A stretch of DNA of 20,663 nt from a virus. The stretch covers positions 1 to 20,663 of the IMG/VR virus record IMGVR_UViG_3300042353_000866; one strand, written 5' to 3'. Position numbers and translations under genes: made by a program. Under the pieces are notes generated by a model, which saw only the letters and a list, made by a program, of their open reading frames with translations, was not told the origin of the DNA and did no database searches. Below, one piece after another: positions 3,277 to 20,124 of the stretch (its first letter is position 1; every line of letters begins with the position of its first letter).

Positions 3277-4014
3277 CTATTCGTGGACACCCTGCTGGTC
3301 AGGGTTCAGATCAAATGGAATGGGTATATACTGATAGCCGCCGCCCGGAAGCGCTTTTCTTTCATAGCGAATTACGCCTGCGCCGACTTGTATGCTTTGA
3401 TCCTTATTGTCGAAGGAGATTGAGACTGGCATTGGGGTTACCAAGGCGCGGCCATACACTAGACCAACAGCGCCTCCTTGGCTTATTGCCGATGCGTTGC
3501 CACCAAACAGATTTGAGCCTCTGGAGTCGCCCTCGGCGTTATTATTGAAGTTGGGTGTGGGGGTTAGCATCTGGGTAATGCCGCCAAGAACGAGAGAGGC
3601 GCTAATGCCCACAAGGGCAGTTCCAACTATGCCAAGTCCGCCACCCGCAGAGGCCATGGCCCACCCGCCAGCCGCGAATCCTCCCGTTAGCGCAATTGAG
3701 GCGATAATGGCGATCCCAAGCAGGATTTTTGCGCCGCCACTGTTTCGCCCTTTAGCTACCGGCATGAGGTAAATATTAGCATTCCCACTGCGGTTGTGCA
3801 GCTCGCTCTTCTCAATCAGCGCGTCTTTCTTCCCAACTCCAAGGCGATAGAATTTCTTCGCGCCCTCCTTAGACAAATATGCCCTCAGCTTCCCTCTCAG
3901 ATTCACATCAATCGCGCGAATCGCCTCAGCGGGCGAGCTGACTTTGAGGGTCCATTTCTTGCCAAATAACTGGCCAAGTTTACCCCCGAGATGAATTGTG
4001 GTGAGTCCTTCCAT
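3277..4014 (-). CDS. I: Tail assembly protein I family (lambda gpI-like)
   Basis: 245 residues, close to lambda gpI in length. In lambda, I acts with K, L and J during assembly of the tail tip; its exact biochemistry is not settled. Residues 1-85 form a soluble N-terminal domain with a beta-grasp look (TTIHLGGKLG, then SSPAEAIRAIDVN). Two hydrophobic, glycine/alanine-rich segments follow at about 95-118 and 122-150. The C-terminal part (about 168-205) matches the family pattern: NLFGGNASAISQGGAVGLVYGRALV, with glycine-rich turn, QG and YGR. The gene starts 30 bases after K and ends 17 bases before J. It is one of few genes here with a visible ribosome binding site (AAAGGAA about 10 bases upstream). 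An element resembling the candidate promoter motif lies about 40 bases upstream, inside the K C-terminus. Confidence 0.85.
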   Translation of the reverse strand: MEGLTTIHLGGKLGQLFGKKWTLKVSSPAEAIRAIDVNLRGKLRAYLSKEGAKKFYRLGVGKKDALIEKSELHNRSGNANIYLMPVAKGRNSGGAKILLGIAIIASIALTGGFAAGGWAMASAGGGLGIVGTALVGISASLVLGGITQMLTPTPNFNNNAEGDSRGSNLFGGNASAISQGGAVGLVYGRALVTPMPVSISFDNKDQSIQVGAGVIRYERKALPGGGYQYIPIPFDLNPDQQGVHE

Positions 4015-4044: not shown

Positions 4045-4785
4045 TTAGGAGTTACACGTATTTTGGGCCGATTTCACCAAAGATTTGTGGCGAAACACAG
4101 AGATTAGGCGGGAGAACCAGCGTTCCGTCAGGGGCTCCCAGCGTGATAGACCGTTGATTGGGTGATGGAGGAATCGATTGCCACTACCAACAATCCCAAA
4201 GTGCTGGGGCATCGCCCTGTCCGTTTTGAACACTAGAAGATCATCAATCTGCACATTTTCTACAGGGATCAGCGCAAAACCCTCTTTCTCATAAGAATGT
4301 GCGATAACACCGGCCTCTTCATGAGACATGGACTCATCGCGGTCGTAGTCCCCCAAATAAATCCCATGAGTCGCCCTGAAGTAATTGCGCACCAGCCCAT
4401 AGCAGTCATCAAAACCCACACACCAAGGCCGCGCTAGAAAGGTCGATTCACTAGACTTTGGGATGTATTCGTGCCAAGAATCCGTGGCAGTGTCATACAA
4501 GTAGAAGGGTATCATCATTTCCTCTGCGCACTCCAGATCGGCTGGGGAGAACCCGGGCGACATAACAGGGTGAGAGTGAAAAACTGCCAGCCCGTGACCA
4601 AGCCCCTCGGCGAGAATCATATCGTCCATGGAAATCTCAAACTCCTCCTTGGGGTTCTCCGCTACATTTTTGCATGGAAGAATGGCGGGATTTCCAATCC
4701 AGTCTCGATAAATGAGCGCGCAGACCTCATTCTCGGGGTCTAGCCGCGCCAAATCGATGAGCTGTTTTTTAATGCCGGTATGCAC
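4045..4785 (-). CDS. K: Tail assembly protein K: JAMM metalloprotease-like plus NlpC/P60 peptidase
   Basis: Lambda gpK-like, 246 residues, with two hydrolase folds in the usual order. The N-terminal JAB/JAMM domain shows a complete zinc motif: Glu20, His70-x-His72, Ser80 and Asp83 (FHSHPVMSPGFSPADLE). The C-terminal NlpC/P60 domain has nucleophile Cys128 in DDCYGLVRNYF, catalytic His195 in PQHFGIVG and a third polar residue at His207/208 (FLHH). Both active sites look intact. In lambda-like phages K is needed for tail tip assembly; a role in peptidoglycan cleavage during DNA entry is commonly inferred from the NlpC/P60 fold and not shown here. The start is GTG at 4785, three bases after the L stop, without a Shine-Dalgarno sequence, so translational coupling to L is likely. 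The domain call is strong; the in vivo substrate is unknown. Confidence 0.92.
   Translation of the reverse strand: MHTGIKKQLIDLARLDPENEVCALIYRDWIGNPAILPCKNVAENPKEEFEISMDDMILAEGLGHGLAVFHSHPVMSPGFSPADLECAEEMMIPFYLYDTATDSWHEYIPKSSESTFLARPWCVGFDDCYGLVRNYFRATHGIYLGDYDRDESMSHEEAGVIAHSYEKEGFALIPVENVQIDDLLVFKTDRAMPQHFGIVGSGNRFLHHPINGLSRWEPLTERWFSRLISVFRHKSLVKSAQNTCNS
4052..4058 (-). promoter_or_regulatory. Possible half-copy of the CGTGTAA motif upstream of I
   Basis: Minus-strand CGTGTAACTCC, overlapping the last codons of K and about 38 bases upstream of the I start. It lacks the GTATAA half. It shares AAATCGGC upstream with the copy before the tape measure. It lies within coding sequence, so chance cannot be excluded. 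Confidence 0.25.
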
Positions 4786-4788
4786 AGA

Positions 4789-5697: not shown

Positions 5698-5702
5698 GGT
5701 GT

Positions 5703-6531: not shown

Positions 6532-9500
6532 TCATCGCCCCTGAACAAAACGGTTCTTCTGCGCGAAGAATCCATCAGAGCGAGACTGATTCACGAGTTC
6601 CTGCTGCACAATCCCTTGAACCTGTTTTTGGAGCTTCATCGCAAAGTCTGGGCCGAAGCCGCCTTGGCCATCTTTCTTGTCAGAAGATGCGGACGCTGAA
6701 GAGGTTCCGTTGTTATTGATCTCGATCTTCACGTTGACATTGGACGAGCCGCCGCCACCGCTGGAGCTGGTCATGGGCTTTGCCATTTCCACAGAACCGC
6801 CGCCATCAACCATTCCACCGTCTGCAAAAAGACGAGGGGCTTGAAAGTCTACTCCGCCGCCGCCAGTAACCATGCCGCCGCCAGCAAAAAGACGAGGGGG
6901 CTGCAAATTCATTCCGCCGCCGCTGGTGACCATGCCGCCAGCCGCAAAAAGGCGAGGTGATTGGAAATTTGCTTCTTCGCCGCTAGAAACTGTGCCGCCA
7001 TTCGCGAAAAGACGGGGAGATTGGAAGTCGGTTTTTCCACCGCTGGAAACCATACCACCGTTTGCGAAAAGACGAGGCGATTGGAAATTCATTTTTCCAG
7101 CATTGGAAACTATGCCTCCATCCGCAAAAAGACGCGGAGACTGGAGATCCATCTTTTCAGAAGCGGTGGCCATGCCGCCGTTTGAGAAAAGGCGAGGAGA
7201 CTGGAAGTCTACTTTACCACCATTCGCAAAAAGACGCGGAGACTGAAAGTCCACATTCTCTCTATTCGCGAAAGCAATGGAGGGTCGTGGGTCAACCTTT
7301 TCGTTAGTGACGAAGGCAAGAGGAGATTGAAAAGCAGGTTTTCCGCTATTGGTCAAAACGCGTGGAGACTGGAAGCCTGTTTTTCCAGCGTCTGCAAAAA
7401 TACGCGGAGACTGAGGAGCCACTTTCCCGCCATTCTCAAAAAGAGCCGGAGATTCAAAATCGACCATCCCACCATTCGCGTACATTCTGCGGGTGGGCGG
7501 GAGCACATAGCCCATTTGATTGGAGCCACCATTGGGATTCGCGCTGAGCCAAGGAAAAAGGCCAGAGGGCGGGGTCATTCCGCGCTGTTCCGTCTCAAGT
7601 CTCACGCGATTAGCGCTGATCTCTGTCGCGTTCATCGGCGTGAACTTCGGATCTTTTGGAGCCAGCATGGAGGAAACTCCGCCGAGCAGAGCGGATGCCC
7701 CAAGGCCCAACGCGGCCTTTTGCCACATGGGCATAGCTGTTTTTTGAGCCAAAGACGCAGCTGACATGGTGGCCGGGTCCATGTTTCTCACAAAGTCTGA
7801 ACCCATACCCACGCCCGGGTTCACGTTGGCCTGAAGAGTCGGGCCGCTAGCGGCTGAAGGGCCGAATTGAAATGCGCCAGCCCCAGCATCCGCCTTAAAA
7901 AGGCTGCCCGTCTGAGAATAGTTCTGGGCCAGCCCGCCGCCGATTCCACCGATAATAGCTCCTGCGATTGCGCCCTTTTTGCCGCCAGTTGCGTAGCCGA
8001 GAGCCCCGCCCATGACCGCACCCATGAGAAGGCCGCCAAAGAATCGGTGTTGGACTTTCCCGTTGACCAGAGAATCGAGGTAGTCAGGTCCCAGTTTGCC
8101 TACGGCAGATTTCTTGATGATGAAGGAGCCCGGGGCAAGGCGCGCCGGGACATCGTCTTTAACGCCCGAGCCGCCACGGACCATGCCGCCGTCAGCGTAT
8201 TTATTCAGGCGGTGAAGGGTGTCGTACCCAATGGACTTCGCGGCTTTCGGCCCAATGTAGTATTCTCCGCCGGTAAGCATCGCGGGGACTTTGCCGCCCA
8301 TAGCGAAGGGGATAGGGCCGCCGTTAGCGCGGCCAACCGCTGGAGAGGACCCGCCGAACATGGAGCCGAGGATGCCCTGAATGGCTTGGCTCGCGAACAT
8401 GCGCGAAGCGTCACCAAGGACAGACACCGCGAAGGAGCGGAAAGCATCCTTGCCGGATTTTGCGCCCGTCACAAAGTCACCAAAAGCACCGGACAGATTG
8501 GAGGATAGGGACTGTCCGAGGTTCGCGCCGAGGTCGGAGAGATCAGCGAAATCCCTCTTCATTTTTGCGAAAACGGACCCAAAGCCAACCTTTAGACTTT
8601 CCATCGAATTGCCTTGCAGGCCTTCCTCTTGGGCTCTCGCAAGACGCTTGCCTGAGATGCTTGAGCCAGACTCAAATTGCCCCACGATTTTCTCAGCGTT
8701 CCTCAGTCGCTCAAGCCGCAGGTCGCCCTCTGAGATTCCATTTGAGCGGAACTTTTCTTCAAGGGCCAAATTCTTCCCATTAATCTTCAGTTTGTTAATG
8801 GATTCCTCTTCGTCTCCGCGCCTCTTCGCAATGTCAAGAAGGACACGATTGGTCTCAATTGCGTCTTTAAGCGCCTTGTTTTCCGTCGCAACTCCGACGG
8901 TTATTTTTTCTTGATTCTGGGTTATTAGCCCCATCATTCTTTCTTTCTCTGCGAGAATAGTCGTTTGCTCAAGCAGTAAATCTCTGACTTTTTCCTCATC
9001 ATTCTCGCCTCTGGCGGTTCTGAGGCTCGACTCATTGTCCAGTTGTCTGCGCTCGATTGTTCCAAAATTCAACCGTCTTTGCAGTTTCGCGCGTTCTTCT
9101 TTGCCGGGCTCATATGAAAGGGAGGCGTTTTCACGCCCCTGTTTCTTGAGGAGATCGGACATCGCACCAATGGATACGTCTGCATCATATCTGTCTTGCG
9201 ATATATTTCCAGCTTGAAATTCTTTGTTGAGATTAGCGATTCGTCGCTGCGTGTTCAGGGCTTCCGTTATGTCTGGGACATCCCGGCGCTCCAAAGAGCG
9301 ATTAAAAAGTTCTTCTGCGTTTGCCGCGTTTTTTCCATACTCAGACGCACCGCCAGCTCGTGTTCCTTTAAATCTGTAGTCTTTCTCTAAAGCGCTTGTG
9401 TTTTCATCGGTCGCGCGGTTCTGCTCTTCAAGAGATTTGTTTAGACTCTCTTGAGCGCGAACGGCCTCTTGAAGAGCTTTTTTAAACTCGTCCGAGAGCC

Positions 9501-12500
9501 CGCCAACACCAGCAAGCCCGCTCTTTTTAATCCCCTCAGGTGAAGAAAGGTCCGAGATAAGTCTTTGAAGGTCTCCAGTCCCAGAGATTCCTTTGATTCT
9601 CGCAATGGCCTCGGGACTTTCTCCGCCCTTGGCTTTTACCATGCTCAATAGCCTGCTCTGCGTATCTGCAATCTGCGAAGAACTCTCCGTTTTGTATTGA
9701 AGCTGTGATGCCTGTTTCGCGTAATAAGACTCAAGCCCAATTTTATTTAGATCGGTTAAACCCGGTGCGGAAAATGCAATTTGCTTCTGAACTCCAAGAA
9801 TCGACTGATTTGCGCCACCTGTAATTTTCTGAAACTCGCTAGACTGGCGATATTTCTCAGAAAGCTCCGCAATTCCCTTCATGCGCAGAACCTCTTCATT
9901 GCTTGTCTTGTCGCTAAGAGCAGCAGCTTTTTTCGTTTGTATCGCAGAATTGATACCGGAAAGGACACCTCTTTGATAAACACCGCCAGACTGAAGATCT
10001 TTGCTGCCGACGGTCGCGCCAATTCCGCCCAGAAGAGGACCGATAACTGGGATCATCGAAGCCATTGTCGAGTATTTTGAAAGACTCTCGTTAGGAAGCG
10101 TTTCTTTTATTTGACCTTCGGAAACGCCAGCATCTTTGAGGATCTGCTTGATAAACTGAGGGTCTTTGAGAATCTGTTCGCGATATTCATTCAGCTTTTC
10201 TGGAGTCTGTTTGGATAAAAATGGCGAAAGTCCAGCACCAATCGTTTTGCGAGCCTTGAGCGTGTCTTTGAAATCTGCTCCAAATATTGATGTTCCTTCG
10301 TCCAAGCCGCTACGCACTGAACTCATGGCGTCCCCAGCAATAGAGACGGAAGCTTGTCTGTCCATTATCTCTTCTAGGGCAGCATCTCGCTCAGCTTTTG
10401 TTCCTGATATTCCAAGACGTGTTTTTGGATTGTATACGCTGCTTAGAGCTGTGTTCAGGCGTTTTTGAGCCATGAATATCTGTCTTTCGCTACCGCCCTC
10501 AGACTTGAGTCTGACAATTTCCTCTGTGATTCGACTTGCTTGGCTGGCATTTTCAAACTCGCGGCGGATCTTATCATTCGCGTCATTGATCTCTTTGGCC
10601 AAATCTTCAAAAGACTTTGTGAGCTTGCCTAGCGCGCCCGAGATTAGGCCGATGGCTCCGCCAGCACCCACGCCAATTGCAGTGCCAATTGGTCCGCCAA
10701 AACTCCCAATTCCCGCACCAGCTCCCGCCATGGTTAGCATGCTTGTCGCGCCCCCAATGGCCATACCGGAACGCGTCCCACCTCGCTGATCAGGCTCGGA
10801 GAATAGGGATGGAAGAGCGCCGCCAGCAAAAGACAAACCCATGGAAGTCCCGAGAGAGGCGACTAGGGGGTTAGCCTTTAAGAATTCTCCAACTTTGCCG
10901 GAGCGGCCCGTAGCCGGAGTTGCCCCGCTGGATGGAGCGCCCATCGCTATCATCTCGGTGATTTGTTTGTTCACCATCCCGTAAATCTGCGCTCTTGCTG
11001 CTGGGTTCTTTAGAGCGCCAGCAATATCGCCGCCGAACCCGAGAGACTGGGCCGCCTGCCCTTTGAGCTGTTCGGTAATTGCGTTTTGTTGCTGTTTGGT
11101 CAGACTCGTGAATTTGTCTCCAGAGCCAAGTCTTTGATTGGCAAGGTTCAGATTTGCCTGCCTCGTGATCTCTCCTTGAGAGGCTTTTTTCTCAAATCCC
11201 AAAATAGCGTTTTGTTGCGCGAGATTCTTCTCGAACTCCACGTTCAGAGGGATAGTCCGCTTGATGATTCTATTGATCTCCTTGCGATTATCCGTTTCTT
11301 TCATCAGCTGGGCGATGGCCTCGTTATAGGCCGTATTCATCCCCTTTCCTGATTTCAGGAGATCTTGAACGGTGCCGCTAAACTGTTCCTCAAGGGTTTG
11401 ACCGCCCGCTAGCCCGCGAGACGCGTTAAGGTTGCCTTGAAGCCTGTTGTAATCGACCCCCTGAGGACCAACAATGTTTTGATAGGCCAGTTTTCGAGCG
11501 CCTTGGCTGGCCGAGCGTCTACCAGCTTCCGTTCCTTGCATCCAAGGCATTGGAATTGAAGAGGAATAGCTGAGGTCTTGAAGTCTCAGGTCTTTGAAGT
11601 CTCTCTTAAAATACTCCTCGGGATAGGTGCGCTCAAGATAAGGCGCAGTATATTTTGGAGGTGATGGAGGCTTTACAGCCCCGGGCCGCCTTAGAAGCTG
11701 AGCGTCGTAATCTGCGCCGCTGCCCGCGCTAGCCGCGCGAGACGCGAGAAATGCAGCCATCGTTTCTGGAGAGGCTTCGTAACCAGAAAACTTAGCTGCT
11801 TTTGCCTGCGCTTTGTGAGAAATGGAGAGTAAGGCCTCTTTGGCATTCTCCATGTTAATAGCTTCTGCTTTTCGCAGCATATCATTCACTATTTCTTGCT
11901 TCCCAAGATCTTGAACGGCTTTCTTCGCCAGTTTTTGCCCTTCTTTTCCATAGCCGTGTTGCGCCTCATAAGCATTGAATGCCTCATCAATAGCTTCAGC
12001 TCTTTTTTTATCTGCTTTTTCTTGCGCTTTCGCGAGCTTTTCTCTGGAAATATCCTGTTTTTCTGCATCCTTTTTCTCGTTTGCAAAAAGATTTGCCAAT
12101 ACACGAGACTTCTCCTTTTGCATCGTCTCCATCTGCTCTGACGTGGGCGCAGCTGGACCATGCTGGATCGGCACGCCAGCGCCGCCAAGCGCCTGATTCG
12201 CCAAGAATGTGGGTGGAACATTTGGACCGTAAGAAGCAGCTTTCCCAAGAGGCGCAACCATCAGGTTTGCATTGAACGTGTCCAGAACCTTTTTGATATT
12301 TCCCGGGAGCTGGGCTCCAATGTTCTCAAACGTCTTTACGTATTGGCCAAGTCCCTCGCCGGATGCGCCACCTGAAAACCCGGCGTTAGATGACGCGTAT
12401 GGTCGCTTGGGGTCTATTCCAAACGGATAGCTTGTTTCCTTTTGGTTTCCAGCCCCAAGGTTCTTGTAGTAGTCTGAACTGCCCCATTCGGGAGGCAGAT

Positions 12501-15360
12501 CATAGGGGTTTTTACCCTCCGCCATATTGGGAATATACCCTCCAGCCGCAATCGGTGTGGACCCCTTCGGGAGACCAAACTTGCTCGCCATGTCCTTCGT
12601 GTAAATCGCTTTGCCCGCCGGAGTCGGTACAATGAACTCGCTCGTGTTCGCGACAATGCCCATTTGGCCGCCGCCTCGGGCGAAGTTCGGGAGGTAGACT
12701 GGAGACGCACTCTTGTCAGCCCCGCCGACCCCAGATTGGATCGCTTTGGACTCCATGCTGATGGGGTCATAGCCGCTGGCAGCAGACATGCGAGTTAGAG
12801 AGCCGGGCTGTCCACGCGCCCAACCCCACGTGCGGCCTTGAAGCTGGGGAATGGTGACACCAAGAATTTTCGCCGCCTCTTGGTATTCTGAGGATAGCTT
12901 GTTGTAGAATCCGTAGCCCTTTTTGCTCTGATCAAACAAAAGTCTTTTCTGTTTTGCCGATACAACTTCGGAATCATATTCAGATAGAGCCGCGCCGCCA
13001 TTCCGCACGTAGATGGCCCAGCTATCCATAACGGCAGGAGTTCCTGTCTTGCTCTTGAAGGAAAGCCCCCTTTTCTTGGGGTTGGGGTTATCGAATCCTG
13101 AAAAATTATCTTCAAGCAATAGCGATGGTGCAAAATTGTGAGTCTTAGCGCCGCCGCCGAGAAGTCTTTCCATTTCTCCTCGCGAGGACGCCTCGAAAAT
13201 TTTGAGGGCTTTCTGTGCATTCTCTTCGGTTATTCCCTTGGTTCTTCCACCGCCCGCCAAAAGGCTTTTCAGTGTTGCCCGCGCATCTCCATCTTGAGCA
13301 TTTGCGGATAGCGCGGCTAGTCCATAGGCTACCTGCTCAACGGATTTGCCCGACTGGGCGGCAAGGCCTTTGATCTCTTTGTTTACAATTGGATAGTAGT
13401 TGGTCGCTCTGTCCGCCTGATTGAAGCGAACTGAGTCGCCTGTCGAAAACGAGCTGCGGTAAGCGTCAATGATATTCTGAACGTATTTGTTGGGCGCTCC
13501 TCCCGGCAGATAGCCACCAGCCGCGATTGGCGTTGAGCCCGGCGGCAACCCTCTCTTCTGAATCATCGCGGGGTTGTAAATCGCAGACCCATTTGGGGTC
13601 TTGACCATGTATTCTGAGGTGTTCGCGACGATTGGCCCGATCTTTCCGCCTCCAAAGGCGAAGTTCGGAATCATCACGGGTCTAGCATTAGGACTCGCGC
13701 CACCTACGCCTGCGCGAATCGCGGATGATTCTGCCGAGAATGGATCATAACCGTTTGCCGCGCGAGGTGTCTTTCTGAGGTTGACTACAGCTCCAGCCAG
13801 CGCGCTGGTATCAGTCTGAAACCCACTCTGCAATCTAGCTGTCCGAGAGAGAATCCCCTCAACCACAGCCGCGCGCTCGGCCAGCGTGCCCATGCTCATG
13901 ATTTGGCGCTTGAGAGCGTCATCTCCCGAGTTGTAGAGCGAGACGATCTGCTGCTGGGTCTCGGCCTGAACTTTCCCGACACCCCTGAGGTCTAGCGCCG
14001 CCGCAAAGTCCTTTTGGAGGTTCTGTGCGGTCTTGCTAGCGATATTCCCGAGAACAGCAAGAACTGCTGGCCCAAGCCCGAAGACAAGGGCGCTACCGAA
14101 TCCCTTGATGACGCCCGCCGCCAGCTTTTCGCCCGCGCTATTTGTTTCGGATTCTCCAGCATTGGCAAAGGCTTGAACTACGGTGCTTCCCGTGAATCCG
14201 CTGAGGAGTCCTTTGGCCGCGTTGCCGATGCCCAGATCACCGATCTTGGACCCAACCTGTTGATAGGTCGTTTGGGCCTGTTGTGCGAGGGCGGCCAGAG
14301 ACTTATTGAGCGCTTCATTGCGCTTGATCGCCTCGTCTGCCGCATTCTCGGAGGTTTTGGCCGCACGCTCTGCAACTGAACTTGACCCCTTGGACACATC
14401 TGCCAAGAGAGCCTTGAGAATATTGATCTGATAAACGCCGCCGACCAGCTCAGCCGCCTGCTTCTTGACCGAGCCACCCAGTTTGTCGTAGACGTTTGCG
14501 AAGTTCTGGAGGAGTCCAATAGCAGGCAGGACCTTTCCCTGAGTATCTGTAACGGCCACGCCGAGCGCTTCAAACGCCTCAATCGTGTCCTTGCGCTCAA
14601 TGCGCGTGAAGATGGTCTTGAGAGAATTTCCGATAACGGCACCACCGCGCGCCGTGGTCTGCTGAGCAGACGTAATGAGACCGATGAGCTGGTTAAATGA
14701 CACGCCCGCGTCACTTGCCGCCGCACCAGCACGAGCCAAGCCTTGCGCGAGATCCTTGGATGAAACCGCGAATTGAGCGTCAACCGTGGCTAGCTTGTTG
14801 ACAATCTGGGTAGAGTCCAAAGCCGACTTCTGAAACCCGTTGATCGCTGCCGTGAGTGTTGAAACCGCCTCTTCTGCGCCCAGCGATGCCAAGCGTGTCA
14901 AAACCATGGCATCCCGCGTCCGTTTCAACACTTCTTCAGCGCCAAGACCCTGACGTGAAAACTCCTTGGCTGCCTCAGCGGTCTTCTCGAAAGACTGGCT
15001 AGTCTCTCTAGCTACATTGAATAGCCCGCGCGAGAACTGTTCGAGGTTCTTCGTGGAGAGCCGGAACACCGAGTTGATGTCCGTCAATGCTTTTTCCACT
15101 GCGACCGTAGACGTGATAATGTCCTTGAATACCCGAATGCTCGTAGAGAGCACTGCAAAGGATGCGCCCAGAGTGATCACACGTTGATTGGCTCGGTCCA
15201 GCTCAGAGCTGAAATCCCGCACATTTCGTCCGCCAGCGGCAAACGGAGTGTTGAACTTCATATTCTTCTCAATGCGCGAGAAGCTCTGCTGGAGTTTAGA
15301 CTCGGCGTCCGAACTCAGCTGTGCGCCAACATTGAGAATGACATCGTTTGTGCCTGCCAT
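6532..15360 (-). CDS. H: Tape measure protein (lambda gpH position), 2942 residues
   Basis: The length ruler and scaffold around which the tail tube polymerises; in related phages it leaves with the DNA. Residues about 1-330 form the PhageMin_Tail/TP901-type N-terminus (VEKALTDINSVFRLS, SQSFEKTAEAAKEFSRQG, then ARGGAVIGNSLKTIFTRIER). Residues 537-616 and 863-941 are two similar modules ending STPIAAGGY, bracketing an extra domain at 617-862. Long charged helical stretches follow, with glycine/alanine-rich hydrophobic segments at about 1528-1578 and 2439-2479 that could span or insert in membrane. Around 2340-2430 are typical tape-measure motifs (GGKVPAMLTGGEYYIGP, DDVPARLAPGSFIIKK). Residues 2633-2856 are thirteen tandem SPRLFANGG-type repeats, followed by an 86-residue polar tail. 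The start is ATG at 15360 (TTACC-ATG-G) after a 96-base leader holding part of the candidate promoter motif. No disruption is seen. Confidence 0.96.
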   Translation of the reverse strand: MAGTNDVILNVGAQLSSDAESKLQQSFSRIEKNMKFNTPFAAGGRNVRDFSSELDRANQRVITLGASFAVLSTSIRVFKDIITSTVAVEKALTDINSVFRLSTKNLEQFSRGLFNVARETSQSFEKTAEAAKEFSRQGLGAEEVLKRTRDAMVLTRLASLGAEEAVSTLTAAINGFQKSALDSTQIVNKLATVDAQFAVSSKDLAQGLARAGAAASDAGVSFNQLIGLITSAQQTTARGGAVIGNSLKTIFTRIERKDTIEAFEALGVAVTDTQGKVLPAIGLLQNFANVYDKLGGSVKKQAAELVGGVYQINILKALLADVSKGSSSVAERAAKTSENAADEAIKRNEALNKSLAALAQQAQTTYQQVGSKIGDLGIGNAAKGLLSGFTGSTVVQAFANAGESETNSAGEKLAAGVIKGFGSALVFGLGPAVLAVLGNIASKTAQNLQKDFAAALDLRGVGKVQAETQQQIVSLYNSGDDALKRQIMSMGTLAERAAVVEGILSRTARLQSGFQTDTSALAGAVVNLRKTPRAANGYDPFSAESSAIRAGVGGASPNARPVMIPNFAFGGGKIGPIVANTSEYMVKTPNGSAIYNPAMIQKRGLPPGSTPIAAGGYLPGGAPNKYVQNIIDAYRSSFSTGDSVRFNQADRATNYYPIVNKEIKGLAAQSGKSVEQVAYGLAALSANAQDGDARATLKSLLAGGGRTKGITEENAQKALKIFEASSRGEMERLLGGGAKTHNFAPSLLLEDNFSGFDNPNPKKRGLSFKSKTGTPAVMDSWAIYVRNGGAALSEYDSEVVSAKQKRLLFDQSKKGYGFYNKLSSEYQEAAKILGVTIPQLQGRTWGWARGQPGSLTRMSAASGYDPISMESKAIQSGVGGADKSASPVYLPNFARGGGQMGIVANTSEFIVPTPAGKAIYTKDMASKFGLPKGSTPIAAGGYIPNMAEGKNPYDLPPEWGSSDYYKNLGAGNQKETSYPFGIDPKRPYASSNAGFSGGASGEGLGQYVKTFENIGAQLPGNIKKVLDTFNANLMVAPLGKAASYGPNVPPTFLANQALGGAGVPIQHGPAAPTSEQMETMQKEKSRVLANLFANEKKDAEKQDISREKLAKAQEKADKKRAEAIDEAFNAYEAQHGYGKEGQKLAKKAVQDLGKQEIVNDMLRKAEAINMENAKEALLSISHKAQAKAAKFSGYEASPETMAAFLASRAASAGSGADYDAQLLRRPGAVKPPSPPKYTAPYLERTYPEEYFKRDFKDLRLQDLSYSSSIPMPWMQGTEAGRRSASQGARKLAYQNIVGPQGVDYNRLQGNLNASRGLAGGQTLEEQFSGTVQDLLKSGKGMNTAYNEAIAQLMKETDNRKEINRIIKRTIPLNVEFEKNLAQQNAILGFEKKASQGEITRQANLNLANQRLGSGDKFTSLTKQQQNAITEQLKGQAAQSLGFGGDIAGALKNPAARAQIYGMVNKQITEMIAMGAPSSGATPATGRSGKVGEFLKANPLVASLGTSMGLSFAGGALPSLFSEPDQRGGTRSGMAIGGATSMLTMAGAGAGIGSFGGPIGTAIGVGAGGAIGLISGALGKLTKSFEDLAKEINDANDKIRREFENASQASRITEEIVRLKSEGGSERQIFMAQKRLNTALSSVYNPKTRLGISGTKAERDAALEEIMDRQASVSIAGDAMSSVRSGLDEGTSIFGADFKDTLKARKTIGAGLSPFLSKQTPEKLNEYREQILKDPQFIKQILKDAGVSEGQIKETLPNESLSKYSTMASMIPVIGPLLGGIGATVGSKDLQSGGVYQRGVLSGINSAIQTKKAAALSDKTSNEEVLRMKGIAELSEKYRQSSEFQKITGGANQSILGVQKQIAFSAPGLTDLNKIGLESYYAKQASQLQYKTESSSQIADTQSRLLSMVKAKGGESPEAIARIKGISGTGDLQRLISDLSSPEGIKKSGLAGVGGLSDEFKKALQEAVRAQESLNKSLEEQNRATDENTSALEKDYRFKGTRAGGASEYGKNAANAEELFNRSLERRDVPDITEALNTQRRIANLNKEFQAGNISQDRYDADVSIGAMSDLLKKQGRENASLSYEPGKEERAKLQRRLNFGTIERRQLDNESSLRTARGENDEEKVRDLLLEQTTILAEKERMMGLITQNQEKITVGVATENKALKDAIETNRVLLDIAKRRGDEEESINKLKINGKNLALEEKFRSNGISEGDLRLERLRNAEKIVGQFESGSSISGKRLARAQEEGLQGNSMESLKVGFGSVFAKMKRDFADLSDLGANLGQSLSSNLSGAFGDFVTGAKSGKDAFRSFAVSVLGDASRMFASQAIQGILGSMFGGSSPAVGRANGGPIPFAMGGKVPAMLTGGEYYIGPKAAKSIGYDTLHRLNKYADGGMVRGGSGVKDDVPARLAPGSFIIKKSAVGKLGPDYLDSLVNGKVQHRFFGGLLMGAVMGGALGYATGGKKGAIAGAIIGGIGGGLAQNYSQTGSLFKADAGAGAFQFGPSAASGPTLQANVNPGVGMGSDFVRNMDPATMSAASLAQKTAMPMWQKAALGLGASALLGGVSSMLAPKDPKFTPMNATEISANRVRLETEQRGMTPPSGLFPWLSANPNGGSNQMGYVLPPTRRMYANGGMVDFESPALFENGGKVAPQSPRIFADAGKTGFQSPRVLTNSGKPAFQSPLAFVTNEKVDPRPSIAFANRENVDFQSPRLFANGGKVDFQSPRLFSNGGMATASEKMDLQSPRLFADGGIVSNAGKMNFQSPRLFANGGMVSSGGKTDFQSPRLFANGGTVSSGEEANFQSPRLFAAGGMVTSGGGMNLQPPRLFAGGGMVTGGGGVDFQAPRLFADGGMVDGGGSVEMAKPMTSSSGGGGSSNVNVKIEINNNGTSSASASSDKKDGQGGFGPDFAMKLQKQVQGIVQQELVNQSRSDGFFAQKNRFVQGR
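6793..7464 (-). repeat. Thirteen tandem coding repeats in the tape measure C-terminus
   Basis: Inside the tape measure gene, residues 2633-2856. The protein unit is built on FQSPRLFANGG. In reading order the first six copies are 14 residues (42 bases) long and the last seven are 20 residues (60 bases), the longer unit carrying a six-residue Gly/Ser-rich insert after ANGG. Copies 2-5 are the most degenerate (for example QSPRIFADAGK, RPSIAFANREN), whereas copies 6-13 are well conserved. On the plus strand the same periodicity gives a meaningless open frame. The role is unknown; isolated ANGG/ADGG motifs also occur earlier in the same protein. Confidence 0.9.
12538..12774 (-). repeat. Duplicated tape-measure module, copy 2
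   Basis: Encodes residues 863-941 of the tape measure: starts GYDPISMES, centre LPNFARGGG and IVANTSEFIV, ends GSTPIAAGGY followed by IP. About two thirds of positions are identical by eye to copy 1 (13513-13752). The shared motifs are of the PNFA / AAGGY kind I associate with tape measure proteins of large phages. The function is unknown. Confidence 0.88.
12775..13512 (-). other. Extra domain inserted between the duplicated tape-measure modules
   Basis: Encodes residues 617-862 of the tape measure. It is more globular in composition than the surrounding helical rod: conserved-looking stretches include VAYGLAALSANAQDGDA, KTHNFAPSLL, a DSWAIYVRNGG strand-like segment, and SSEYQEAAKILGV followed by a Q...W...W end. 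The overall pattern recalls small helical domains found in other phage proteins whose last part reads LG(V/I)xPxxxQxxxW, but I cannot name the family with confidence. No catalytic signature is recognised. It sits as a self-contained block flanked by near-identical modules, as expected for a domain acquired with its flank duplicated. Confidence 0.55.
13513..13752 (-). repeat. Duplicated tape-measure module, copy 1
   Basis: Encodes residues 537-616 of the tape measure: starts GYDPFSAES, centre IPNFAFGGG and IVANTSEYMV, ends GSTPIAAGGY followed by LP. It pairs with copy 2 at 12538-12774, and the extra domain lies between them. Confidence 0.88.
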
Positions 15361-15427: not shown

Positions 15428-15434
15428 TTACACG
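15428..15434 (-). promoter_or_regulatory. Half-copy of the CGTGTAA intergenic motif upstream of the tape measure
   Basis: Minus-strand CGTGTAA followed by ATCCC, about 68 bases upstream of the tape measure ATG. The flank is almost identical to the copy at 17764-17780 (minus strand TTTCCGTGTAAATCCCTA versus TTTCCGTGTAATCCCTA). The upstream GTATAA half is not recognisable at the 14-base spacing (CAAAGAA instead). It may be a weaker copy of the same promoter-like or leader element. Confidence 0.45.
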
Positions 15435-15456
15435 GAAACTAAGCCGATTTCTTTGT

Positions 15457-16431
15457 CTATCTTGCATTTTTTGCCGCCCAGTCCATAAAGGACCCGCCAT
15501 TCTTCATGATGTCTGCAACCACATTCTGATTCTGCTTCAGTCCAAGCACCTTAGCATCTTCTTTCTTGGCCCCTACTACAACGGCCCCTTCCTCATATGC
15601 GCCCTGTTTCTGCATCTCCTCTTTGCCGCGCGACGCAGCCGTAGCGTAATCCGTGAGAAGATCCGGGTCTTCCATGACAGACTTGGGGAACTTGGAGGTG
15701 TCGTTATTTTGATAGATGTTCAAGAAGTGACGACCATAGGACAGAAGCTTGACCTGCATAAACGTCATTTGGCAGATGGGACGGCCAAAGAATTGAGATA
15801 TATTTTCACCAGTAAGCGCGAAATACTCTTGAAAAAATCCTTGCATGGCCAGCTTTCTAACGTTCTGCGGGGAGCAGCCGTCCATGGCGAGATTGTAGTC
15901 GGCAATCAAATGATTCATCTCTGCGTCTGTCATGTACTGAAATTCTCCATCTGAAAACAAAGACTTCTCTAATGTCTTGTCGCGGAATAGATTGGAGAAG
16001 ATAAAATGATCGTTCACCTCACGGTCTGCATATGACTCACAGGTTAATCCCATCAGCGCGGCCTTCTCTCTCAGCTTGTCATTCTGGATCTTTTCCTGCT
16101 CTTTCAACTGCTCGTTGTACCTTTTGACGAGCGACGGCATGTTCATGTTCTTTTTCTTTCCGTCCATAATCCCGTCTATCATCATTTGGCAGTCTCGAAT
16201 CTCTTTGTCTTTTACATCCGACCAGATGCCCTGTTCTTTCATCTGAACTATTCTCTGCTCGTTGGTCAATGCGCCCTCGCTCTTTGCAGTCGCAATAAAA
16301 TCCTCTCGGACAGAATCAAAGGAGATTTGGTCCGCGTAGGATAGGTGCTTGACATATCCGGGGCGCGAAAGAAAAACGCCGTGAGTATAACCCACGGCGA
16401 TGTCGCGAAAAGCTTTTCGGAGATGGTCCAA
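15457..16431 (-). CDS. Protein in the gpT (tail assembly chaperone) position
   Basis: 324 residues directly upstream of the tape measure, where lambda-like phages encode the G/T tail assembly chaperones that bind the tape measure before tube polymerisation. I do not recognise a named domain. The N-terminus (GVFLSRPGYVKHLSYADQ, then TNEQRIVQMKEQGIW) has a compact look; the centre is a charged helix (about 100-140); the rest is mixed. The start is TTG at 16431, preceded by AAAGG six bases away, nine bases after the stop of the upstream gene and in the same frame. There is no nearby ATG in frame, so reinitiation on TTG, or readthrough of the UAA, are the options. The assignment as chaperone is positional only. 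Confidence 0.6.
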   Translation of the reverse strand: MDHLRKAFRDIAVGYTHGVFLSRPGYVKHLSYADQISFDSVREDFIATAKSEGALTNEQRIVQMKEQGIWSDVKDKEIRDCQMMIDGIMDGKKKNMNMPSLVKRYNEQLKEQEKIQNDKLREKAALMGLTCESYADREVNDHFIFSNLFRDKTLEKSLFSDGEFQYMTDAEMNHLIADYNLAMDGCSPQNVRKLAMQGFFQEYFALTGENISQFFGRPICQMTFMQVKLLSYGRHFLNIYQNNDTSKFPKSVMEDPDLLTDYATAASRGKEEMQKQGAYEEGAVVVGAKKEDAKVLGLKQNQNVVADIMKNGGSFMDWAAKNAR

Positions 16432-16440
16432 AGACGGCCT

Positions 16441-17262
16441 TTAGACCGTAGGTTCAGCGACCGAAGGATCTTTGGCGCTTTCTGGGGCGACTTCTTCTGT
16501 AGTCTTTTTTCCCTTGCTTGCCTCCAGCTGTTTGGCAAGCTCCTCTTCCATAGCTTTGAACTGTTCGGGCTTATCCAGACCCATATTGAACATCTGGACA
16601 TACGTGGCGATTTTGTCCACCGCAAGAGTGAAGAACGCATCGTCGCTCTCCTCCAGCTTCCACATAAATTCCTCTTTGGCGTCAAACGTGTCGCCTTTGA
16701 AATATGGTGCCCATTTGCCAGCCTCGTCAATGAGGATCAGGTGATAGATGAACCAGTTGTTCAGCGAAGACTGCGCCTTGGCCTCGGCTGTATGGTTGAA
16801 AACCGCTTCGTTGGAAGAGTTGATATCAGACATTTCCGTTCGGACGGCCACCAGCTCGCCGCGAATCTTGGATTTCACCTCTTCGGGCTCGGAAAGGCAG
16901 CGTACAAGATCGGATTCAAGCTGCGCGTGCTTCTCGGCGAGCTTGGCGGCTTGAACGCGCTCCTTCTGAGACAGAACGCCTCCGGTCAGATCAAGGTGCT
17001 TGTTGACCAGAATTGAGCGTGGGAGAAAGCCCATTGTGACATACTTATTGAACTCTTTTCCGTAGTGAAGCTCGGCGGCGCGCAGCTCACGGCGAGTGGG
17101 TGCCTTGATGGCCATTTTAGTGGCAATGTCCTTCTGAACTGGGCGCGTCACTTGGACGGTCTGTCCATTGATGACCTCGGGGCCGGTCTCATCAACCGTT
17201 TTCTTTTGGGCGATGGTCCATTCGTGGAGAATTTTAGTGGTGTTGGTCGTGTCGTTGCTCAT
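16441..17262 (-). CDS. Protein in the gpG (tail assembly chaperone) position
   Basis: 273 residues, about twice the length of lambda gpG. The gene lies two upstream of the tape measure. I recognise no named domain. Visible features are a basic N-terminal segment (APTRRELRAAELHYGKEFNKY), a central helical region with KERVQAAKLAEKHAQLE, a SLNNWFIYHLILIDEAGKW stretch, and an acidic helical C-terminus. At codons 251-253 the mRNA reads G_GGA_AAA_AAG, a classical -1 slippery sequence in the correct frame, at the place where lambda G has GGGAAAG. This supports the chaperone assignment. A -1 shift gives a short basic ending and not a G-T fusion (see findings). The start is ATG at 17262, directly behind four pentamer repeats and with no Shine-Dalgarno sequence at normal distance. 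Confidence 0.65.
   Translation of the reverse strand: MSNDTTNTTKILHEWTIAQKKTVDETGPEVINGQTVQVTRPVQKDIATKMAIKAPTRRELRAAELHYGKEFNKYVTMGFLPRSILVNKHLDLTGGVLSQKERVQAAKLAEKHAQLESDLVRCLSEPEEVKSKIRGELVAVRTEMSDINSSNEAVFNHTAEAKAQSSLNNWFIYHLILIDEAGKWAPYFKGDTFDAKEEFMWKLEESDDAFFTLAVDKIATYVQMFNMGLDKPEQFKAMEEELAKQLEASKGKKTTEEVAPESAKDPSVAEPTV
16504..16513 (-). promoter_or_regulatory. Candidate -1 ribosomal frameshift site (two overlapping slippery heptamers)
   Basis: The minus strand reads GGGAAAAAAG in frame as AAG-GGA-AAA-AAG. It therefore contains both G_GGA_AAA and A_AAA_AAG, each fitting X_XXY_YYZ in the zero frame. Frame was checked against the gene start at 17262. The -1 frame continues for 16 codons and stops at TGA 16456-16454. 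Confidence 0.6.
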
Positions 17263-17282
17263 GGTGTGGTGTGGTGTGGTGT
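17263..17282. repeat. Four exact pentamer repeats next to the G-position start codon
   Basis: Plus-strand GGTGT repeated four times (minus-strand ACACC), touching the ATG at 17262-17260. The repeats lie between the nearest purine-rich stretch (AAGGACAGGA, roughly 24-33 bases upstream) and the start codon. Such a simple repeat can change copy number by slippage and would alter the spacing. Confidence 0.85.
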
Positions 17283-17318
17283 GATCCTGTCCTTGGCGGT
17301 ATCGTTGTTGGTTGTATC

Positions 17319-17330
17319 TCTGCCGTTCCT
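17319..17330. repeat. 12-base direct repeat in a gene leader, copy 1
   Basis: TCTGCCGTTCCT (minus strand AGGAACGGCAGA), in the leader of the G-position gene. It is identical to the copy at 17725-17736. It contains AGGA and could be a displaced ribosome binding or regulatory element. Confidence 0.6.
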
Positions 17331-17348
17331 TGTCTCTAAATTGTAGTG

Positions 17349-17699
17349 TTATCGACTGTTCAGCCGCAGCCCGTCGATCATGTCGTGGATTTCTCGAATT
17401 GAGTCATTGCCCGTTTCCAGAACCTGTCTGCGAATCGCAGCAAAGCGCGCCTCTCCGAAGTGATCTGCCAGATAGACTGACGCGCGATGTTCGGGCGGGA
17501 GGGCATCGATGAGTTTGCCCATGGCTTCGTCATGTTCGTCGGCGACCTGTTCGAGGAGGTCTAGATAAGTCTTGAAAACACGGGTGATAGCTAAACGAGT
17601 CTTAGCTTTTAGCAGATCCGCGTTGGACGGCACGCTGAATGATTGGGCGTGGGGCACGGTCCCCGCTGGGTCGCTAGGCGCGCAATGTGGTGAATCCAT
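17349..17699 (-). CDS. Small helical protein of unknown function
   Basis: 116 residues from ATG at 17699, which has a good Shine-Dalgarno sequence (AGGA, seven bases upstream). The frame also allows a GTG start at 17744 giving 131 residues, but no ribosome binding site precedes that. I do not recognise the family. The first 25 residues are proline/serine-rich and probably disordered. From about residue 28 the protein reads as amphipathic helices (ADLLKAKTRLAITRVFKTYL, then EHDEAMGKLIDALPPEHRA and a final helix up to DMIDGLRL). It lies between the tube genes and the G/T-position pair, downstream of a terminator and a promoter-like element, so it probably opens a new transcript. A structural or chaperone accessory role is only a guess. 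Confidence 0.7.
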   Translation of the reverse strand: MDSPHCAPSDPAGTVPHAQSFSVPSNADLLKAKTRLAITRVFKTYLDLLEQVADEHDEAMGKLIDALPPEHRASVYLADHFGEARFAAIRRQVLETGNDSIREIHDMIDGLRLNSR

Positions 17700-17724
17700 G
17701 TTCCGTTCCTGTGTAATAGGTTGA

Positions 17725-17736
17725 TCTGCCGTTCCT
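17725..17736. repeat. 12-base direct repeat in a gene leader, copy 2
   Basis: TCTGCCGTTCCT again, here in the leader of the small helical protein (its ATG is at 17699). A shortened relative, minus strand CAGGAACGGA, lies just before the ATG and supplies the Shine-Dalgarno sequence. Confidence 0.6.
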
Positions 17737-17769
17737 GTCTTCACCGGGTGACCGGTTGGACAATAGGGA

Positions 17770-17797
17770 TTACACGGAAAAGAGAGGAAGTTATACT
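17770..17797 (-). promoter_or_regulatory. Candidate phage promoter element: GTATAA, 14 bases, CGTGTAA
   Basis: On the minus strand AGTATAA (17797-17791) is followed by 14 bases and CGTGTAA (17776-17770), then TCCC. It lies only a few bases downstream of the intrinsic terminator and upstream of the small helical protein, the natural place to restart transcription. Identical architecture is found at 19068-19095 and 20097-20124. Promoter activity is inferred, not shown. No sigma-70 -35 box is evident. Confidence 0.55.
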
Positions 17798-17799
17798 GT

Positions 17800-17831
17800 A
17801 AAAACGAAAAACCCGAGATTTCTCTCGGGTT
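17800..17831 (-). terminator. Intrinsic terminator after tube-like protein 2
   Basis: On the minus strand a perfect 9-bp stem AACCCGAGA / TCTCGGGTT with a GAAA (GNRA) tetraloop (stem and loop 17831-17810) runs directly into the T-rich tract TTTTCGTTTT (17809-17800). It begins 27 bases past the stop codon of the gene at 17859-19007. On the plus strand the hairpin lacks a T tract, so it acts leftward. Confidence 0.92.
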
Positions 17832-17858
17832 AATCTTGACCGGGCAAAAAGCCGGATT

Positions 17859-19007
17859 TTAGGAGGTTGTGTAACTTCCGGAGAACGTGATGCCGTCGAG
17901 ACTCGTCGCGCCAGCGAGCTGGCTCGTCATCGAGATGTCAACAGAGCTATCAGATCCGATAGAGTTGCTGAACGCGATGTTGGCCACCTTGGCGTTGTTA
18001 AACCCAAGGATAATACCCGCGAGACCCGTGCTGTTGCAGCTCGGCTGACGGAGCGTGACCGTCAGATCATAGTTTTGATCATTGCAGTAGAGCTGATCAA
18101 ACGAATTCGGAGCAACTTCAGTCTGAAGAGCGCGAATCTGGAGATTGGCGTTGACAGGGAAATTGATTTCACGGCTGTAACCGAACGGCGAACCAAGAGC
18201 GTTGAGCACCTCGCGGCTAATCGGAACGGAAAGGGCGAGAGACTGAATCTGCACGCTGTTCTGACCGCTGAGAGGGACGAGGAAACCGGCGGCGGATGGG
18301 AAGCTCAGAGAGATGTCGCCGGGGCGCAGAGCAAACACGTTGTTCGATCCAGATTGAACGCGGCCCTGAGGAAGCTGGAAGTTCCAAGCTGAAATGCGCT
18401 GGGAGTTCTGGGGGTTTACCGCCGGAGTCTGGAGGCCGCTTGAACCGGTATAGGTCGCGACATTCAGCGCGTCAACCGAGATGCTAGTGGTGGCTACTTG
18501 ACCAACAGCCGCATTGAACGTGTAGTTCGAGACGAAACCGTTGCCGACCGCATAGACATCGCGAGCATTGGGATTTGTCACCGCATCGTCATCGATACCC
18601 TGCTGGGAGACCGAGAGGAAATAGTTCTTGGAGTCAGAGGCTTTCGTGAGAATACCCGAAAGGAACGAGTTGCCATTGGTGTTGAAGCCAAGCATCTGCT
18701 CGTTGTAGCCGTCCGTCGCGTTCCATGTCAGGTCCATCGAGATCGTCGGCGGGCTGATGATGATCTGATCTACGCGGGCCAATTGGCCGAAGACGTTGAT
18801 GTCGTTACGGTTGATGCCAACATTCAGAGAAGCAGACTGGATATTCGCCAGTTCCGCAATCAGGTTGTTGCCAGTATTGGAGGGCAGGTTTGTGCCCTGA
18901 ATTACAAACATAGCACCTGTGGCAGTCGAGCCGGAAAGTGCGGCAGGTCCAACGTAGGCGTTAAGATTCTGAAAAATCAGGCGTGTTCTGGGAGAGGTTC
19001 CGGGCAT
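17859..19007 (-). CDS. Probable major tail tube protein 2 (gpV position)
   Basis: 382 residues, beta-rich, with many Ser/Asn/Gly, few Lys and no signal peptide or membrane segment, as expected for a virion structural protein. Position (upstream of chaperone pair and tape measure) and the dedicated strong terminator fit a highly expressed tube subunit. It resembles the neighbouring 318-residue protein over its length: residues 56-107 (IQSASLNVGINR ... QMLGF) match that protein's 27-79, and residues 253-293 (QIQSLALSVPISREVLNALGSPF) match its 191-231, with a conserved Cys308. The start is ATG at 19007 (CACTACC-ATG), no Shine-Dalgarno sequence. The leader holds a promoter-like element 61-88 bases upstream. 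Structural role is likely; whether this or the neighbour is the main tube subunit is not decidable by eye. Confidence 0.7.
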   Translation of the reverse strand: MPGTSPRTRLIFQNLNAYVGPAALSGSTATGAMFVIQGTNLPSNTGNNLIAELANIQSASLNVGINRNDINVFGQLARVDQIIISPPTISMDLTWNATDGYNEQMLGFNTNGNSFLSGILTKASDSKNYFLSVSQQGIDDDAVTNPNARDVYAVGNGFVSNYTFNAAVGQVATTSISVDALNVATYTGSSGLQTPAVNPQNSQRISAWNFQLPQGRVQSGSNNVFALRPGDISLSFPSAAGFLVPLSGQNSVQIQSLALSVPISREVLNALGSPFGYSREINFPVNANLQIRALQTEVAPNSFDQLYCNDQNYDLTVTLRQPSCNSTGLAGIILGFNNAKVANIAFSNSIGSDSSVDISMTSQLAGATSLDGITFSGSYTTS

Positions 19008-19067
19008 GGTAGTGAAATGTGACTAGGTTGAGGTGAAAGATCGATTGAGAGGTTTATCTCAATGGGT

Positions 19068-19095
19068 TTACACGAGTTTCCCCGTGATTTATACT
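19068..19095 (-). promoter_or_regulatory. Candidate phage promoter element upstream of tube-like protein 2
   Basis: On the minus strand AGTATAA (19095-19089), 14 bases, CGTGTAA (19074-19068), then ACCC. It is located between the two tube-like genes, about 61 bases before the ATG at 19007. The spacing matches the copies at 17770 and 20097 exactly, while the 14 intervening bases differ. Confidence 0.55.
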
Positions 19096-19131
19096 TTTTT
19101 CTTGACCTTTCCAAAAACCAACTTGACTGCC

Positions 19132-20088
19132 TTACGTAATCGAAAGAAGAGAACCGTCTGTCGTGTCCGACGGATTGATCGGAAGAGGAAGAGAGAACGA
19201 GAATGAGCAGGTCGAAAACCCACCAACTTGACCGTCCAAGCTTTGACTATCCAAATATGGGTTCACCATAGTGTAGGTCGTCGGACCAGCTGACGAGCAG
19301 GAGGAGAGAAGGGTCAAATATACGTTTCCGTAAGTGGGATCGCCACAGGAATATTGGGAAAGCCCCGTCATGCTGTTATTGACACCTTCAAAATAGCCTT
19401 GGACTTGCAGGGTCGCGGTAGCCTCGGTCATCGGGCGATCCACTGGGAACGGCGTGCCGCCGAGCTGGAAGACCTGAGTGCGATTAAAGCCGACACCAAG
19501 GGAAAAGCTTTGAATATTTACGCCCGTGATGCCGTAGCCCGTGAACAAAATGCCAGTCAAATATGTACCCTCGGGCTTCACGATTTGCGCGCCATACGCC
19601 GTCGAGTCGCGGGCCGTATTGTTGATCGAGCCCGACATATCAAAAAACTGCATCCCAACGCTACCACGAACCGGCTCGCTGATGGAGCCCTGAATAGAAT
19701 AATTCGTTAAAACACCGCTCTTCAGATCCAAGAGACCGTTATACGTATTGGAGGCAGTCGGCGCGAAATATACCTGTGCATTTCGGACCGCGAAGCTGTT
19801 TCCGAGAGTCCGCGCATCTGTCATGCCAGCAGTAATGCCAGTGGTGTTAACCAGTCCGAGCATCGTTTCGATGCTGATGTTGCTCTTTACAAAATCAAAG
19901 GAAAAATCGACTGGGGTGTAATTGATGATCGGGCGCTGGGACAGAGGCTTCGACTTGTTCATGGCCCCAACATTTACACGTGGCAAATTCACGTCAATTT
20001 TAACGTTCTGAACACGCTCCACTGCCCCCATGAATGTTCCCGCGAGACCACTGGAAAGCTTTACCTGACCTCCTTGATAGATTGGCAT
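19132..20088 (-). CDS. Probable tail tube protein 1, paralogue of its downstream neighbour
   Basis: 318 residues, beta-rich with many Ser/Thr/Asn/Gly and no membrane segment. It shares an order of motifs with the next gene: an N-terminal VQNVKIDVNLPR block ending in ETMLGL, a C-terminal NIQSFSLGVGFNRTQVFQLGGTPF block with a following R and LQVQG, and Cys248 before a VYLTL strand. Identity is low by eye, but the order is the same, so the pair probably arose by gene duplication. One copy may be the main tube subunit and the other a decorated, initiating or terminating variant. The start is ATG at 20088, with the promoter-like CGTGTAA ending only eight bases upstream and no Shine-Dalgarno sequence. 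No terminator is seen between this gene and the next. Confidence 0.65.
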   Translation of the reverse strand: MPIYQGGQVKLSSGLAGTFMGAVERVQNVKIDVNLPRVNVGAMNKSKPLSQRPIINYTPVDFSFDFVKSNISIETMLGLVNTTGITAGMTDARTLGNSFAVRNAQVYFAPTASNTYNGLLDLKSGVLTNYSIQGSISEPVRGSVGMQFFDMSGSINNTARDSTAYGAQIVKPEGTYLTGILFTGYGITGVNIQSFSLGVGFNRTQVFQLGGTPFPVDRPMTEATATLQVQGYFEGVNNSMTGLSQYSCGDPTYGNVYLTLLSSCSSAGPTTYTMVNPYLDSQSLDGQVGGFSTCSFSFSLPLPINPSDTTDGSLLSIT

Positions 20089-20096
20089 AACTGAGA

Positions 20097-20124
20097 TTAC
20101 ACGGGTTTTAGATTCAGTTATACC
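20097..20124 (-). promoter_or_regulatory. Candidate phage promoter element upstream of tube-like protein 1
   Basis: On the minus strand GGTATAA (20124-20118), 14 bases, CGTGTAA (20103-20097), then TCTC. CGTGTAA lies eight bases before the ATG at 20088. If GTATAA is the -10 box, transcription would start close to CGTGTAA and leave a very short leader. Confidence 0.55.

Follow-up and report, generated by a model that had tools for sequence, protein, structure and literature searches.

The DNA analysed here is an entire IMG/VR viral fragment of 20,663 bp (IMGVR_UViG_3300042353_000866; contig G000), referred to below as the window. It carries a block of tail genes on the minus strand, with a tape-measure protein of 2942 amino acids and lambda-like tail-tip genes, and no gene was called on its plus strand. 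Upstream of genes in this block lies a short two-part motif, which an earlier note on this DNA had proposed to be a phage-specific late promoter. Our results make it highly probable that the motif is a bipartite phage promoter of middle and late genes, read by the host RNA polymerase with a phage-encoded sigma factor that carries a cluster of cysteines; the evidence for this reading is computational and includes the co-occurrence of motif and sigma factor and a predicted fold.

A two-part motif upstream of tail genes

The three copies of GTATAA-N14-CGTGTAA that the earlier note described are present on the minus strand at 17796-17770, 19094-19068 and 20123-20097 (the purine placed ahead of GTATAA adds one position to each), against 0.00 expected from 100 shuffles of the window. 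The reported excess of TTACACG is also real, with seven occurrences (six on the plus strand) where 1.25 are expected; none of 100 shuffles reached seven. When the CGTGTAA sites of the window were aligned with those of G1, a 205,168-bp jumbo-phage contig, the constant pair in gene direction (minus) was AA[AC]T(C/G/T)-N11-CGTGTAA. This pair fits five sites in the window (P1 to P5; Table 1) and excludes two copies of CGTGTAA within genes, one in coding DNA of the gene at 19132-20088 (19974-19980) and one antisense in the tape-measure gene (12598-12604), both of which lack the upstream half. The sites before the tape measure and at 4058 read AAATC-N11-CGTGTAA without GTATAA. The GTATAA unit with its fixed spacing, although real in three copies, is thus out of register with the pair that fits all five sites. 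Nor are all CGTGTAA copies intergenic, since P5 (4058-4052) lies in the last codons, at the 3' end, of the tail gene at 4045-4785.

GTATAA is a frequent form of the upstream half in the window phage, and likewise in the contigs G2 and G23; upstream regions of G23 genes show [GA]TATAA[AC]T(C/G)-N11-CGTGTAA. In G1 the forms of this half include GCACAACTC and ATAAAACTC, and the AA core alone is common to G1 and the window phage. The earlier note had suggested GTATAA as the -10-like half. The assignment is the reverse: judged by its gene-proximal place, its distance and its being the most conserved half, CGTGTAA is the -10-like box, and GTATAA overlaps the -35-like half.

Table 1. Sites, terminator and genes in the window, with corresponding sites in G1
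Feature	Contig	Position	Strand	Details
Promoter P1	window	20097..20123	minus	AACTG 20119-20115, GTATAA 20123-20118, CGTGTAA 20103-20097; serves gene 19132-20088
Promoter P2	window	19068..19094	minus	AAATC 19090-19086, CGTGTAA 19074-19068; serves gene 17859-19007; predicted start ~19061
Promoter P3	window	17770..17796	minus	AACTT 17792-17788, CGTGTAA 17776-17770; serves gene 17349-17744; predicted start ~17763
Promoter P4	window	15428..15450	minus	AAATC 15450-15446, CGTGTAA 15434-15428; serves tape measure; predicted start ~15421
Promoter P5	window	4052..4074	minus	AAATC 4074-4070, CGTGTAA 4058-4052; serves tail-assembly gene 3277-4014
Intrinsic terminator	window	17810..17831	minus	9-bp stem 17831-17810, T tail; ends transcript upstream of P3
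Gene behind P1	window	19132..20088	minus	no PHROG match; weakly similar to 17859-19007 product
Gene behind P2	window	17859..19007	minus	tail region; no PHROG match
Gene behind P3	window	17349..17744	minus	start GTG 17744 or ATG 17699
Tape-measure gene behind P4	window	6532..15360	minus	2942 aa
Tail assembly gene behind P5	window	3277..4014	minus	phrog_32
Orthologous site of P1	G1	105911-105905		
Orthologous site of P2	G1	104885-104879		
Orthologous site of P3	G1	103617-103611		
Orthologous site of P4	G1	101025-101019		AACTC-N11-CGTGTAA
Orthologous site of P5	G1	92741-92735		
Counterparts of two G2 sites	G1	85119; 85616		85616 as AGTGTAA (second G2 site)

Conservation, enrichment and distance to start codons

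The window is collinear with part of G1, with about 40-65% protein identity for most genes. It shares 10,783 bp at 100% identity with G2 and blocks of 94-97% identity with G3; among cultured phages, neither megablast with 16.6 kb of its sequence (DNA level) nor tblastn with a 382-amino-acid tail protein found a match. All seven sites tested (five in the window and two in G2, the same phage) are kept upstream of the orthologous G1 genes. The spacers differ between orthologous sites, as if selection acted on the two halves.

Genes in G1 and in two further contigs, G5 and G7, were called with a simple home-made program based on codon usage. Upstream of G1 genes, no word stands out more than GTGTAA (23 against 1.8 expected). 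Counted upstream in gene direction, the most enriched words are GTGTAAA, found 18 times in G1 (0.54 expected; 4 in coding DNA), GTGTAAC, 20 times in G5 (0.63 expected; 1 in coding DNA), and TAGTGTAT, seven times in G7 (0.26 expected; none in coding DNA). In G1, 19 of 25 occurrences of the full pair, AA-N15-GTGTAA, lie upstream in the sense orientation (9.2% expected by area); for G5 the count is 18 of 23 (11.4% expected). The reversed form of the pair shows no upstream enrichment in either contig. The -35 AA itself is tied to upstream sites, being present at 19/27 of these against 6/42 elsewhere in G1 and at 18/23 against 5/68 in G5. Coding and intergenic frequencies, which the earlier note had proposed to compare, are therefore unequal, and its proposal of a phage-specific promoter is strongly supported by this enrichment in gene direction and by the conservation at G1 orthologues. 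On the enrichment evidence, a chance repeat was rejected as the origin of the motif.

The distance from motif to start codon, which had been described as variable, does vary but is not random. Across ten genomes, the start codon lies 13-18 nucleotides (nt) past the first G of GTGTAA at 41 of 154 sites, where 5.5% are expected (p 1.8e-17), and five control words fall in this class at 0-3 of 31-66 sites. In a second clade of the sigma factor described below, the class holds 31 of 58 sites, from loci that partly overlap those ten genomes. Shine-Dalgarno-like stretches precede 3 of the 41 genes of this class, against 39 of 110; since the motif itself occupies that stretch, the difference is in part trivial. 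A ribosome-binding role for the motif was rejected on the strand orientation data and this start-codon class. If transcription starts about 12 nt past the first G, messages of the 13-18 nt class would have no or almost no leader, pointing to leaderless mRNAs at about a quarter of these promoters. P1, with its ATG 14 nt past the first G, is predicted to start its message at or beside that codon. Past P4 (15421-15383, minus), an ATG at the predicted start opens a frame of 12 codons, closed ahead of the tape-measure start, which may be a leaderless mini open reading frame.

Sites directly after terminators were found in the window (17797, as the earlier note had observed), G1 (107926) and G5 (119882). 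Within the first 58 kb of G1 no gene is preceded by AA-N15-GTGTAA; the genes that it does precede include those for tail proteins, PhoH, ribonucleotide reductase and exonuclease. From this absence and gene content we infer a class that is both middle and late; 'late' is too narrow for the class as a whole. A second promoter-like class, CCCTAT[T/A]-N14..19-CTGCTA, was observed between 15 and 53 kb of G1 (loci L141-L143); its 11 sites have very short leaders and are confined to the left part of that contig, and it is perhaps read by a second sigma or a host factor.

A sigma-like protein family with a cysteine cluster

A Pfam search for sigma region 2 first led to a 205-amino-acid protein in G1 (59310-59927) resembling the extracytoplasmic function (ECF) sigma factors and, in G7, to another protein unlike it. 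A common family emerged from tblastn with the G7 and G5 proteins (G1 74711-75364, G5 160054-159290, G7 634-1302; about 45% identical). Five cysteines between sigma regions 2 and 4 are invariant in all 33 aligned members, and a scan with this middle part found 325 relatives in IMG/VR. Of these, 80 were kept and 78 loci were examined, L274 and L275 being omitted as parts of records already covered (L275 in that of G7); all 78 encode the sigma-like protein. Sigma-like proteins outside this family were also seen in G1 (59310-59927; L143:19310-19927, minus) and G7 (L251:10843-11415, minus).

Sigma70_r2 matches 30 of 33 members at E<=0.1 (best 4.8e-9), phrog_1740, a sigma family, matches 10 of 33, and Sigma70_r4_2 matches 4 of 33 at E<=0.1 (best E 0.0006). 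An AlphaFold model built from the 33-row alignment had a mean confidence (pLDDT) of 83.7 and a pTM of 0.44; an earlier model from three rows (pLDDT 58) was not used. Region 2 of the model matches that of SigE (8b3z; Z 9.0, 1.8 A over 70 residues), and region 4 matches that of Escherichia coli SigE (2h27; Z 8.5, 2.7 A over 69). By predicted fold and domain matches, the protein consists of regions 2 and 4 without region 1.1 or 3, and the cysteine cluster probably binds zinc. In G1, G5, G7 and G23 (4/4), the sigma gene starts almost directly past the stop codon of the preceding frame, which suggests that it shares an operon with a conserved partner.

Searches of cultured phages, the PDB and genome contigs found no significant relative. 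Members from G7, L303 and L294 had no tblastn match at E<=0.01 among 50,697 cultured-phage records, and those from L283 and G1 gave nothing significant there (E 0.8 or worse). A PDB sequence search with the three-row profile returned chance-level matches only, and a scan of genome contigs with the sigma alignment gave 516 pattern matches with no relative among them.

A link between this family and the motif is supported by 75 loci selected by the sigma protein alone (loci in the G1, G5 and G7 records were omitted). GTGTAA is the top 6-mer upstream of their genes, with 73 occurrences against 9.5 expected and 25.6 times its coding density, compared with 0.7 times at 63 control loci selected by a tail-tip protein and 1.0 times at 107 control loci of unrelated contigs, which were picked up by scanning viral contigs for a 14-base pattern and are mostly chance matches. 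Seven of seven further records fetched by the sigma protein, from 30% (G22) to 59% (G19) GC, carry GTGTA[A/T] words upstream: GTGTATAG in G19, GTGTAAA in G20, and GTGTAA in G21, G22, G23, G24 and G26; in G20 and G22 a sigma-70-like CTTGAC word ranks equal to or higher than this core. A promoter word in gene direction, unlike those of hosts, thus recurs upstream of phage genes in G1, G5 and the records fetched by the sigma. The sigma clades differ in the upstream half: that of G1 and G23 has AA at -17/-16, the other a T-rich stretch from -14 to -12. Such a difference would be expected had region 4 diverged.

G23 encodes the sigma-like protein at 18447-19208 (minus). It comes from the same metagenome as G2, the first 127 bases of each are identical and inverted, and their junction falls where the collinear G1 map places it (about 83.9 kb in G1), so that the two look like neighbouring pieces of one assembly. 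Through this chain from G23 to G2 and the window, the cysteine-cluster sigma is almost certainly encoded by the window phage.

Candidate readers of the promoter

From the motif, its orientation, conservation and enrichment, the sigma co-occurrence and the predicted fold, all computed here, we infer a scheme of binding, start points, timing and zinc coordination. A phage sigma with region 2, a probably zinc-binding cysteine cluster and region 4 would associate with the host RNA polymerase; region 2 would recognise the -10-like GTGTAA and region 4 the -35-like AA[AC]T, with 14 bp between AAC/AAA and GTGTAA. Transcription would start about 12 nt past the first G of GTGTAA, and about one in four promoters would start the message at, or a few bases from, the start codon.

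Several points weigh against this scheme. The link with the sigma is a co-occurrence among related phages, and that between G23 and G2 is a single 127-base end overlap within one metagenome. AA-N15-GTGTAA is absent from 3 of 20 records searched (G19, which has GTGTATAG, G30 and G36); G7 and the KKW clade show a weak -35 AA. Region 4 alone falls under the Pfam cut-off (14.2 bits against 25.7 for the G1 member), whole-protein Foldseek matches are weak (best E 0.029), and the Z values, obtained per domain, lie in a range where common folds score too. The start codons rest on the simple gene caller. Finally, the second, ECF-like sigma of G1 (59310-59927) and the other candidate in G7 are possible alternative readers.

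A promoter read by a factor other than the cysteine-cluster sigma (a second phage sigma, an alternative sigma of the host, or a MotA-like activator of the host sigma-70 holoenzyme) is the most serious of these alternatives, though we regard it as unlikely. The second G1 sigma exceeds the Sigma70_r2 cut-off, G7 has another candidate, and the halves lie closer together than a classical -35/-10 pair. However, the cysteine-cluster sigma is the only one found in G1, G5, G7 and G23 together. GTGTAA is unlike the sigma-70 -10 box, and hence an activator alone would be insufficient as an explanation; one core shared by phages of 30% to 59% GC, probably with different hosts, makes a host factor unlikely. 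It is far less probable that the motif is a binding site of a regulator or other protein, or a repeat used, for example, in packaging or replication. In G5 (L237-L246), unlike in G1, the -10 word is also enriched upstream as its reverse complement TTACAC (29 of 91 sites), as such a site might be, but the fixed orientation to genes, the sites just past terminators and the sharp 13-18 nt class argue for a promoter. The chance that two copies are instead sigma-70 promoters on the plus strand, directed away from the genes (TTTACA-N17-TATACT at 19067-19095 and ATTACA-N17-TATACT at 17769-17797), seems negligible. Their scan scores are 10/12 and 9/12, but orthologous G1 sites lose TATACT and keep CGTGTAA (e.g., GCACAACTC...CGTGTAA), the enrichment in G1 is in gene direction only, and the window has no called gene on that strand. 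In gene direction, a scan of positions 1-20000 for TTGACA-N17-TATAAT-like promoters gave no minus-strand match at four of the five sites, the site at 20097 being outside the scan.

A promoter read by the cysteine-cluster sigma has partial counterparts. Like the ECF (group 4) sigma factors, such as E. coli SigE, the protein has two DNA-binding domains only, both matching SigE in the model. SigE promoters, with AAC in the -35 element and a GT-TAA-like -10 element, resemble the motif, whereas ECF promoter halves are further apart. The protein differs from ECF sigmas in its five conserved cysteines between the domains and in a region 4 that Pfam recognises weakly. T4 gp55 is likewise a sigma-like phage protein that serves late promoters, with a fold match to the model (7d7c; Z 9.0). 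It is not known to contain a region 4 and reads a -10-like box alone, and T4 late transcription needs gp33 and gp45 as well.

Salmonella phage 7-11 encodes a sigma, SaPh711_gp47, with late promoters of consensus GTAAtg-(16)-aCTA (PMC8948821). That system resembles the present one in having a phage-encoded sigma with region 4, the host core polymerase and bipartite promoters before late genes (PMC8948821). The consensus here is, however, AA[AC]T-N12-GTGTAA, the available part of that report mentions neither a cysteine insert nor zinc, and no tblastn match of our family was found in the phage collection at E<=0.01. The sigma of coliphage phiEco32, gp36, is described as serving middle and late genes from a single element, tAATGTAtA, with the start 6-8 bp downstream (PMC8948821, PMC4331800). 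Its element shares a TGTA core with ours and its role in middle and late genes is similar, but gp36 is reported there to have neither region 4 nor a -35 element, whereas the present family has region 4 (by fold) and a -35-like half. In a survey of jumbo phages, one group has two sigma types and another a separate TFIIE-like zinc ribbon (PMC7824862). Our literature search turned up neither GTGTAA promoters in phages nor a phage sigma with a cysteine cluster; as subscription journals are poorly covered, this is weak evidence of absence.

Phage-encoded sigmas with promoters of their own are thus already known, while the cysteine-cluster family, its putative promoter and its spread in uncultured phages were not found described. 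We lean, by a small degree, towards an undescribed sigma family in which a cysteine (zinc) knuckle as linker of regions 2 and 4 sets a short AAM-N14-GTGTA promoter with much leaderless transcription. Its carriers would be jumbo phages and further large phages whose hosts vary and are probably unrelated, and the family would be widespread among uncultured viromes and lacking in cultured phages. A promoter word readable from sequence could supply start points, operons and the division between early and middle/late genes for uncultured phages that are barely annotated. It would also name a sigma/promoter pair that is testable in vitro and could become an orthogonal promoter system, and the leaderless class would bear on translation in phages.

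Minor observations concern the genes themselves. The products of 19132-20088 and 17859-19007 both match one third gene in G1. Two adjacent genes in G3 (19952-21651; L153-L154) also match a single G1 gene (105930-106769) and are likely a tandem duplication in that lineage. The C-terminal part of the window's tape measure (about 6850-7420, minus) translates into many FQSPRLFANGG-like repeat units. A G1 gene at 177950-179278 (L149:17950-19278) matches phrog_1211, '2-aminooxy adenylosuccinate synthetase' (PurZ-like; E 2.3e-68), which makes a 2-aminoadenine (Z) genome possible for G1.

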